Below are positions 29,712-35,344 of a stretch of DNA of 43,858 nucleotides, piece after piece. The notes beneath the pieces are model-generated. The model did not search any database and was not told where the DNA came from. It worked only from the letters and a program-made list of their open reading frames with translations. The stretch is taken from assembly GCA_021732785.1 (NCBI GenBank), contig JAKFUG010000063.1, forward strand, positions 1-43,858, read 5' to 3'. The position numbers and the translations under genes were made by a program. Position 1 is the first letter of the stretch. Every line of letters starts with the position of its first letter. Source of the stretch: Planctomycetaceae bacterium. GTDB lineage: Bacteria > Planctomycetota > Planctomycetia > Planctomycetales > Planctomycetaceae.

Positions 29712-30929
29712 ATGTCAGATCTCGCCTGCCGGAAGCCCGGTCGGTTGGTGTCGTTCCGGGTGCTGTTGTCGGTGGCGTCGATCGTGGCCCTGTCGAGCAT
29801 CGGTTTCCTCCGCGCGGCAGACGAACCGGCTAAGAAACCCGTTGTAAAAGCTCCCGCCGCTCCCACGGAAAAAGAAGACGCCGCGGCGGATCTCTTCGCG
29901 ATTCCCGACGGCAAACCGGCGGAGATTCTCAAATGGACGGACGAATTGCAACGGAAGCGGATGAATTTCAAGAGCCGCAAAGAGGCCGTGGATTTCGCAA
30001 TTCGCGTGCAATGGGCACTGATTGATGCCGGCGACAAAGTGCTCGCCCAAACGACGGCGTCCGATGACGAAGCCCTCGCCGCGGCGGAAATGAAACTCCA
30101 GGCGTTGTCGCTGCTGACCGAAGCCGGCATTGACGGGGCACTCGAAAAGGCGATGAAAGCCGCCGAGGTGCTGCAAAAAGATAAACGGCCGGACATCGCC
30201 GAGCAGGCCACCGAAACGTGGGGCCGATTGCGACTCCTCAGCGTCACCAAAATGGAAGCAAAAGAACGGGCGGCGTTCATCAAGGAAACCCTCGACGCGA
30301 TTCCGTTGTCCAAGTATTCCGCGGAAGCTGTCAACAAAGCGGGACAACTGGGTGAAATCCTTCAGTCGCTCGAAGAAGAAACGCTCGCGGCCGACTATTA
30401 CGAACAACTCGCGAAGTCGCTGGCCAAGTCGGACAAGCCGCGGTTGAAGCAAATGGCCGAGATGCTGGCGGCCGAAGTTCGCCGGATGAAGCTCCCCGGC
30501 AACCCCATGGTCGTGACCGGCAAAACACTGGAAGGCAAAGATTTCCAGTGGGACCGCTACAAAGGCAAAGTCGTCCTGGTCGACTTCTGGGCCACCTGGT
30601 GCGGTCCCTGTGTGCAGGAAATGCCCAACGTCAAGGAAAACTACGAAAAGTACCACGAAAAGGGCTTTGAAGTTGTCGGCATCAGTCTCGATGACGACCG
30701 CGCAAAACTCGAAGGCTTCATTGCGAAGAATGAAATTCCGTGGACCAACCTCTTCGCCGAACCCAAGTCCGAAGGGGAACCGGGCGATCAACCGACTGCC
30801 GTTCATTACGCCGTCAGCAGCATTCCCACGGCCATTCTGGTGGGCAAAGATGGCAAGGTGATTACGTTGAACGCCCGTGGTGAAATTTTGACCGAACTGT
30901 TGGGAAAACTGCTCGGCGACAAGAAGTGA
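29712..30929 (+). CDS. TlpA/ResA-like thioredoxin-fold protein with helical N-terminal region
   Basis: The 405-residue protein has a leader with a hydrophobic segment (VLLSVASIVALSSIGFL) and is exported or anchored. Residues 40-265 are mainly helical and charged and not recognised. From about 266 there is a peroxiredoxin/TlpA-type thioredoxin domain with WCGPC at 296-300 (Cys297, Cys300), the strand VVGISLDDD, and a cis-Pro segment SSIPTAILVG. TlpA-like proteins reduce disulfides in the periplasm, often for cytochrome c maturation, which fits an organism with many exported c-type cytochromes. The next gene, a lipase-like hydrolase, follows on the same strand. Confidence 0.9.
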   Translation: MSDLACRKPGRLVSFRVLLSVASIVALSSIGFLRAADEPAKKPVVKAPAAPTEKEDAAADLFAIPDGKPAEILKWTDELQRKRMNFKSRKEAVDFAIRVQWALIDAGDKVLAQTTASDDEALAAAEMKLQALSLLTEAGIDGALEKAMKAAEVLQKDKRPDIAEQATETWGRLRLLSVTKMEAKERAAFIKETLDAIPLSKYSAEAVNKAGQLGEILQSLEEETLAADYYEQLAKSLAKSDKPRLKQMAEMLAAEVRRMKLPGNPMVVTGKTLEGKDFQWDRYKGKVVLVDFWATWCGPCVQEMPNVKENYEKYHEKGFEVVGISLDDDRAKLEGFIAKNEIPWTNLFAEPKSEGEPGDQPTAVHYAVSSIPTAILVGKDGKVITLNARGEILTELLGKLLGDKK

Positions 30930-33763: not shown

Positions 33764-35344
33764 ATGGAATTTGTGTCGGCCACGTATCGCCTGCGGTGTG
33801 CGGAACAGGATGCGGAAACGATTGCCCGCGAGATTGCGCTCGAGCAAACCGTCGAAGTTCCAGAAGAATTAATCCGATCGGCAGCGATCAGCGACGATGT
33901 TGTCGGTCGCGTCCGATCCGTTCTTCCGGTGTCGGGAACCAGCGGTGCCTTCGCCGCCGTCATTGATTATCCCGCCGATCTGGCCGGAACCCACGTCGGA
34001 CAGATGTGGAATCTGCTGTACGGCAACATTTCGCTCAAACGGCACGTGCGATTGACGTCGGTGTCGCTCCCGGCGGAAGTCCGTCGCCGCTTACCCGGAC
34101 CGCGCTACGGTGTCGATGGTCTGCGGGACATGCTCGGTGTTTACGACCGACCGTTGCTTGCGACGGCGCTGAAGCCGCGCGGCTCTTCGCCGGAGCAACT
34201 CGCGGCGCTCGCCGGTGCGTTCGCGGCCGGCGGCGGCGATGTCGTGAAGGACGATCACAATCTGGTGGATGCGACATTCGCGGAATTTCGCGAGCGCGTG
34301 GATCGCGCGTTTGATGCCGTCGAAGAAGTCAATGTGCGAACGGGTCGCCGCACGCTTTACGCGCCGAACTTATCGCCACCGATTCAGGAACTGGATCGCT
34401 ATGCGGAGTACCTCGTGCAGCGCGGCGTGCGGGCGGCGCTAATCGCCCCCATGCTGCTGGGTTTCGATACCGTCGCCCAGTTGACGCGGCGATATCCTCT
34501 GGTGTGGCTCGGGCACCCGACATTCACCGGCTCCTTTTTTCATGATCCCGACCACGGTGTTGCCCCGGGATTGATGCTGGGGACATGGTTCCGCTGGCTG
34601 GGCTGCGATGCGACCATTTTCCCGAATTACGGCGGGCGTTTCTCGTTCAGCCGTGAAGAATGCGTGTCGATTGCGGACGGAGCGCGATCGCCGGACACCG
34701 ACTTCAAACCGTGCTGGCCCGCGCCGGCGGGGGGCATGTCGTTCGATCGTTTGTCCGAAATGGCGACCGATTACGGAGCCGATACGCAATTTCTCATCGG
34801 CGGGGCCTTGCTGAGCGATTCGGCGAATCTCGAAGGCAGTACGCGCCGATTTCTCGAAGCCATCCTCGCGCAGTTTCCGCAGGCAAACCAGCGCGAACCG
34901 GCGGCGGCATGGGCGTCCGCGTGTGAATTGCCGATGACGACCGAGGCGCGGAAGATCCTCGAACATCTTTCTTTCCGCAGCGATTTCACCTGGCGCGGCC
35001 GCGCAGCGACGGCATACAAACCCGACGATCGGTTGCCGTTCCGTGATGTTTCCCGCACGGAGTTAGTGGGGGCGTTCGGGGAGTCGACCGCGTTCGATGT
35101 CCGGTACTTTGAAATCGCTCCCGGTGGTTATTCCAGCCGGGAAAGACACGTTCACGCGCATGTCGTGATGGGCGTGCGTGGTAAGGGAATGCTCGACACC
35201 GGCGATGTCTCCCAGACGATTTCGCCTTGGGATCTTGCCTACGTGCCGTCGTTACGGCCGCACCAACTGCGGAACACGGGCCGCGAACCGTTCGGGTTTT
35301 TGTGCATCGTCGATCACAATCGCGACCGTCCGCAACCGGCGTGA
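33764..35344 (+). CDS. RuBisCO-like protein (form IV type) fused to a C-terminal cupin
   Basis: The 526-residue protein starts at ATG 33764 with AGGAA (33748-33752) upstream. Residues 1-400 form a RuBisCO large-subunit fold. Lys137 in ATALKPRG and Lys162/Asp164 in GGGDVVKDDHN correspond to RuBisCO Lys175, Lys201 and Asp203. His165 replaces metal-binding Glu204, His251 lies in WLGHPTF, and the loop-6 lysine is absent (FPNYGGRFSF), so CO2 fixation is not expected. KDDH-type relatives are known among RuBisCO-like proteins. Residues about 440-520 form a cupin with metal-ligand candidates His462, His464, His466 and His500. In Rhodospirillum rubrum a RuBisCO-like isomerase and a separate cupin act in succession in methylthioadenosine salvage; other RuBisCO-like enzymes act in apiose breakdown. 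The function here is open. Confidence 0.87.
   Translation: MEFVSATYRLRCAEQDAETIAREIALEQTVEVPEELIRSAAISDDVVGRVRSVLPVSGTSGAFAAVIDYPADLAGTHVGQMWNLLYGNISLKRHVRLTSVSLPAEVRRRLPGPRYGVDGLRDMLGVYDRPLLATALKPRGSSPEQLAALAGAFAAGGGDVVKDDHNLVDATFAEFRERVDRAFDAVEEVNVRTGRRTLYAPNLSPPIQELDRYAEYLVQRGVRAALIAPMLLGFDTVAQLTRRYPLVWLGHPTFTGSFFHDPDHGVAPGLMLGTWFRWLGCDATIFPNYGGRFSFSREECVSIADGARSPDTDFKPCWPAPAGGMSFDRLSEMATDYGADTQFLIGGALLSDSANLEGSTRRFLEAILAQFPQANQREPAAAWASACELPMTTEARKILEHLSFRSDFTWRGRAATAYKPDDRLPFRDVSRTELVGAFGESTAFDVRYFEIAPGGYSSRERHVHAHVVMGVRGKGMLDTGDVSQTISPWDLAYVPSLRPHQLRNTGREPFGFLCIVDHNRDRPQPA

Follow-up and report, generated by a model that had tools for sequence, protein, structure and literature searches.

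In Rhodospirillum rubrum, the isomerase Rru_A1998, a RuBisCO-like protein (RLP), is followed by the methylthioxylulose-5-phosphate sulfurylase Rru_A2000, as described in PMC4958253. Bacteria with such separate enzymes use them to recover sulfur from an S-adenosylmethionine by-product. The account in PMC4334135 names glutathione as the coenzyme of this sulfurylase and reports a glutathione-methylthiol adduct. In Rhodopseudomonas palustris, methanethiol is reported to fall 4-5 fold when either gene is lost, and 1-methylthioxylulose 5-phosphate to accumulate when the cupin is missing (PMC5893883). Rlp1 is described as a separate protein (PMC5893883, PMC4958253), and so is the glutathione-using Rru_A2000 (PMC4334135). 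In contrast, the planctomycete RLP analysed here carries a C-terminal cupin, and this cupin follows a linker with a conserved cysteine. Fusion of methionine salvage steps is likewise described for Tetrahymena MtnBD (PMC3698126), which, however, joins other enzymes of another pathway branch.

The gene lies in the window, that is, the whole stretch of DNA analysed (43,858 nucleotides, contig JAKFUG010000063.1 of the Planctomycetaceae bacterium assembly GCA_021732785.1). The source genome (G000; 6.69 Mb, 96 contigs, 99.6% complete) contains one RuBisCO_large match, the fusion gene itself.

A RuBisCO-like protein and a cupin in a single frame

The fusion gene is a single frame of 526 aa, and its translation contains no internal stops (Table 1). 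Both domains were recognised by Pfam above the curated cut-offs, RuBisCO_large at residues 117-282 (E 2.5e-17) and Cupin_2 at residues 448-516 (E 3.8e-10). An earlier note, made from the DNA letters, had described a RuBisCO-like protein and a cupin in one chain, and this description holds. The residues it named (K137, K162, D164, H165, H462/H464/H466 and H500) were all verified. Since the same two-domain frame was found in 18 further genomes, an assembly artefact could be ruled out for the fusion. AlphaFold2, run on the window protein together with that of L002, gave a poor model (mean pLDDT 43.2).

Table 1. Features of the fusion gene in window coordinates.
Feature	Position	Strand	Basis
Complete fusion gene (526 aa and stop codon)	33764..35344	+	Two-domain frame also present in 18 other genomes
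RLP domain, residues 1-375, KDDH-type; predicted DeepYkr	33764..34888	+	Pfam, PDB match, motif, tree
Lys137	34172..34174	+	RLP alignment
K162-D163-D164-H165 motif	34247..34258	+	His in 42/42 clade rows, Glu in 8/8 others
Arg292, loop-6 region	34637..34639	+	Arg in 42/42 clade rows; OiaX row has Lys at same column
Interdomain linker, residues 376-400	34889..34963	+	Conservation low outside motif
Linker motif S-A-C-E-L-P, residues 385-390, incl. Cys387	34916..34933	+	Cys in 18/19, Glu in 19/19 fused proteins
Cupin domain, residues 401-526, methylsulfurylase-like	34964..35341	+	Pfam, PDB match, cupin tree
Putative metal ligands H462-x-H464-x-H466	35147..35161	+	His at each in 19/19 fused proteins
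Putative metal ligand His500	35261..35263	+	19/19 fused proteins
Cys514, proposed sulfurylase nucleophile	35303..35305	+	19/19 fused proteins; also in 3jzv, 3kgz, 3ibm

The RLP domain belongs to the KDDH clade

A PDB sequence search returned 3qfw as the best match, over residues 5-367 (E 2e-74), followed by MtnW enolases at 6e-47 and weaker. Identity to 3qfw, which we take to be Rlp1 (DeepYkr) of R. palustris, is 38% over 363 aa. The NCBIfam models for MtnW, OiaX and RuBisCO III all scored far under their cut-offs.

The RLP tree comprised 50 rows. Of these, 42 form the KDDH clade (19 fused proteins, 19 unfused planctomycete proteins, two rhizobial proteins, the Terrarubrum protein and 3qfw), and eight lie outside it (two MtnW, OiaX and five other RuBisCO relatives); R. 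rubrum Rru_A1998 is not among the rows. Of twelve weaker RLP-like matches, the tree includes five (L031, L110-L113) and omits seven (G211, G233, G192, G386, G260, G306 and G377). L013_G063, in whose matched stretch one TGA is flagged, was excluded from the alignment and the tree, and the second RLP place in G202 was not used. The fusion RLP fell within the 42-row clade including 3qfw with a support of 100/100, apart from MtnW and OiaX. Constraining the window and G216 rows to group with the two MtnW rows was rejected by the AU test (p-AU 6.4e-7). Placement among the form IV RLPs, suggested earlier as a check, groups the domain with 3qfw and the KDDH clade and with no clade of known different function. 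The likeness to Rlp1 of R. rubrum and R. palustris extends to the 3qfw clade, the KDDH motif and the identity given above.

The earlier note had pointed to His165 in place of Glu204. The exchange is present, but its emphasis has to be shifted, since all clade rows have His and all rows outside have Glu; it is a mark of the family and not an oddity of the fusion protein. The loop-6 lysine is indeed absent, with no Lys in residues 284-300 and Arg292 sitting there. Lys137 is presumably the equivalent of RuBisCO Lys175. By clade and motif we infer a DeepYkr-type domain, with predicted methylthioribulose-1-phosphate isomerase activity.

The cupin domain resembles the methylsulfurylase

With the cupin part (about residues 403-524), the PDB search retrieved 3ibm, 3jzv and 3kgz at E 1e-26 to 7e-23, and the next solved cupins followed at 3e-8. 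Identity is 46% to 3ibm, 42% to 3kgz and 41% over 121 aa to Rru_A2000 (3jzv, E 4.7e-26). The HxHxH cluster, the further His and the Cys of the fused cupins are likewise present in all three structures. Absence of a metal site had been named beforehand as an observation that would speak against the proposal; the putative ligands are all present in the sequence. In the cupin tree, fused and proteobacterial cupins lie on one side of a branch with weak support (78/92). A DMSP-lyase-type cupin was rejected as a far weaker match (E 4e-8 vs about 1e-26). In the work of Warlick et al. 2012, an active-site Cys of the sulfurylase is reported to accept the methylthio group first, in the form of a methyl disulfide.

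A conserved cysteine motif in the linker

The S-A-C-E-L-P motif of the linker is a new feature found in the present analysis. In the alignment of the 19 fused proteins, the most frequent residue at a position has an average share of 0.64 in residues 1-362, 0.44 in 363-384, 0.88 in the motif (385-390), 0.32 in 391-400 and 0.71 in 401-526. Within the motif, Glu388 is found in all 19 proteins, Ser385 and Cys387 in 18 each, Ala386 and Pro390 in 16 each and Leu389 in 13. The linker varies widely in length and the motif is kept, and unfused RLPs terminate upstream of the motif position in the alignment. The other conserved cysteines lie in the folded domains (Cys300 and Cys514 in 19/19, Cys12 and Cys281 in 16/19). 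One fused protein has Gln instead of Cys387. It comes from G277, the sole genome of the 19 with bshC; this coincidence represents a single event in related genomes, which gives no statistical proof.

The fused genomes were searched for genes of the first enzymes of glutathione and bacillithiol synthesis. Glu_cys_ligase was found in none of the 19 with the profile model, GCS2 in one of the seven searched (G231) and BshC in one of the 19. With the models tried, GCS2 being run on seven genomes, 17 of the 19 have no first-enzyme gene for either thiol. For the source genome, two models (GCS2 and Glu_cys_ligase) found no first-enzyme gene for glutathione. GSH-S_ATP gave weak matches in 6/7 fused genomes and is not decisive, because 9/14 controls, including B. 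subtilis and archaea, match too. Among the genomes with unfused RLPs, bshC was found in nine of the 11 searched, and the two without it (G051 and G037) are both of the transketolase type described below.

Based on the motif and the thiol genes, linker Cys387 may act as an on-board resolving thiol in place of glutathione. In the boldest reading, the methylthio group would move onto Cys514, forming a methyl disulfide that would be resolved by Cys387, not by glutathione. Methanethiol would be freed, and the Cys387-Cys514 disulfide left behind would be reduced by thioredoxin. The protein would then be a thiol-independent methylsulfurylase, and the linker a catalytic arm, which would explain why bacteria that have neither glutathione nor bacillithiol keep the two domains together. 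We put this forward tentatively, as a possibility that we hold to be rather unlikely.

Stand-alone cupin relatives of other planctomycetes have a C-terminal CxxC in six of nine cases (L101, L102, L103, L105, L106 and L109), which is perhaps another built-in thiol. A link between bshC and the built-in Cys of these cupins was rejected as inconsistent, bshC being present in one of the six with CxxC and in one of the three others. The window also encodes a protein with a C-terminal thioredoxin-like (redoxin) domain at 29712-30929, about 3 kb upstream of the fusion gene on the same strand and probably unrelated to it.

Spread and origin of the fusion

A close RLP (best E 2.9e-76 or lower) was found in 27 of 392 genomes taken from the phylum Planctomycetota; it is fused in seven of them and not in one frame with the cupin in 20. 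Within the order to which the window belongs, the RLP occurs in 18 of 170 genomes. Seventeen of these are fused; the match in the remaining one (G452) stops at a contig end and was not counted as fused. Together with G277 and G231 from other families, this gives the 19 fused genomes. The G277 frame is without a start because the contig ends there. L002, whose match values equal those of L078 (G503), enters the counts a single time, as G503. Near-copies occur among the fused genomes (G283/G321/G464, G451/G453 and G508/G510), and the 19 therefore stand for fewer independent lineages. The search for fused and separate homologues, proposed earlier as a check, thus yielded both kinds, with unfused RLPs and stand-alone cupins found beside the fused proteins.

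The 19 fused cupins form one clade in the cupin tree (support 98/95), which fits a single fusion event for the planctomycete proteins. Secondary loss of the cupin was considered as a possibility: the fused rows are not one clade in the RLP tree (3 changes), but a one-clade constraint was not rejected (p-AU 0.145). Other phyla were covered by a single one-protein scan, which picks up close relatives. Matches came from 364 plasmid records; only one of these spans 80% of the query, and it encodes RLP and cupin as two neighbouring genes. Literature searches confined to open-licence papers found no description of an RLP-cupin fusion.

Related loci

On the Terrarubrum flagellatum plasmid NZ_CP091853.1, RLP and cupin are adjacent on one strand, as in the fusion. 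In contrast to the one planctomycete frame, they are two genes 36 bases apart, without the linker motif. RLP, cupin and cysE stand in a row on this plasmid (L033, 8001-10548), and the row would fit a link to sulfur assimilation.

Rhizobial RLPs found with mtnK, mtnA and a split transketolase belong to the same KDDH clade. The four rhizobial-type operons inspected contain transketolase genes and no cupin adjoining the RLP, whereas the planctomycete fusion has the cupin. An RLP of the KDDH type or related to it lies directly behind a split transketolase in L034, L035, L115 and L116 (rhizobial and Devosiaceae plasmids) and in the planctomycete loci L049 and L051. At four transketolase-type loci, the RLP also lies behind mtnK, mtnA and a divergent sugar ABC transporter; in L117 (Vibrio), where a split transketolase likewise precedes the RLP, the stretch shown contains neither mtnK nor mtnA. 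Judged from this gene order, the transketolase-type loci probably represent a second pathway, in which the RLP product would be cleaved by transketolase and not by a cupin. A literature search for RLP, transketolase and methylthioribose found no paper. Ten unfused RLPs have no match to the cupin in their flanks of up to about 8 kb (L042, L044, L046-L048, L050 and L052-L055).

Proposed function and alternatives

Very probably, the fusion protein is a bifunctional methylthioribulose-1-phosphate isomerase and methylthioxylulose-5-phosphate methylsulfurylase of the MTA-isoprenoid shunt. This assignment builds on the single chain, the clade membership, the conserved residues and the conservation of the fusion, and both reactions are taken over from characterised relatives. 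The RLP domain would convert 5-methylthioribulose 1-phosphate to 1-methylthioxylulose 5-phosphate, which would pass from the RLP part to the cupin. The cupin would then remove the methylthio group via Cys514, so that DXP is formed together with methanethiol or, alternatively, with the methyl disulfide of a thiol.

The genomic context was compared with this proposal. The source genome has mtnA (439.6 bits, cut-off 279), which lies far from the fusion, as in G216 and G373; the distance is about 12 kb in G283 and in G321 and about 21 kb in G231. Presence of mtnA says little, since all 42 genomes searched have a match (41 above cut-off), 21 of them being family members without an RLP. No MTA phosphorylase (MtnP) scored above cut-off in the source genome, where its two matches class as purine nucleoside phosphorylases, and two of the 42 genomes have one above cut-off (G058 and G231). 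As dxs was found in all seven fused genomes searched, DXP supply does not depend on the shunt. Next to the fusion lie genes for an ABC-2 permease, a phosphomannose isomerase and, on the opposite strand, a signal peptidase I; thus no pathway gene adjoins it. When 21 window proteins were compared with seven fused loci, only two distant window genes matched besides the fusion.

The missing MTA phosphorylase match in the source genome would also suit the same chemistry on another substrate, e.g. 5-deoxyribulose 1-phosphate from 5'-deoxyadenosine, with a cupin that has drifted to another role. Elsewhere in the clade, RLPs are found together with mtnK, mtnA and split transketolase and without such a cupin, and because of these members the KDDH clade appears to serve more than one pathway. 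However, the metal ligands and Cys514, which a deoxy substrate would not need, are kept in 19/19 fused proteins, and we regard this alternative as improbable.

An MtnW-MtnD-like fusion of ordinary methionine salvage would combine a diketo-methylthiopentyl-phosphate enolase with an acireductone dioxygenase. The MtnW models do give the best NCBIfam name for the RLP domain, and MtnD is described as having a cupin fold (PMC3698126). Yet the two scores are far under the cut-offs (193.6 vs 409 and 143.5 vs 513.6 bits), the motif is KDDH and not KDDE, the tree keeps MtnW separate and the AU test rejects its union with the fusion. For the cupin, Cupin_2 is the only Pfam cupin above cut-off, and no acireductone dioxygenase family appeared at E up to 1. 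We therefore rejected this identity as highly improbable. Also rejected, as scarcely credible, was a fusion of an OiaX-like decarboxylase with a sugar-metabolism cupin: OiaX is a RuBisCO relative with 26% identity to the fusion RLP over 391 aa, but the score is 91.6 bits against a cut-off of 700, and OiaX has Glu, not His, in its KDD motif and lies on another branch. Of the two routes considered in the earlier note, sulfur salvage is thereby supported and sugar-acid breakdown is not.

If the assignment to the MTA-isoprenoid shunt is right, this route reaches Planctomycetota as one bifunctional protein, which would lend itself to experiments on whether a RuBisCO relative and its partner channel their substrate. 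Through the linker cysteine, one could ask directly and at low cost how a sulfurylase needing glutathione in R. rubrum may work in bacteria seemingly without that thiol.
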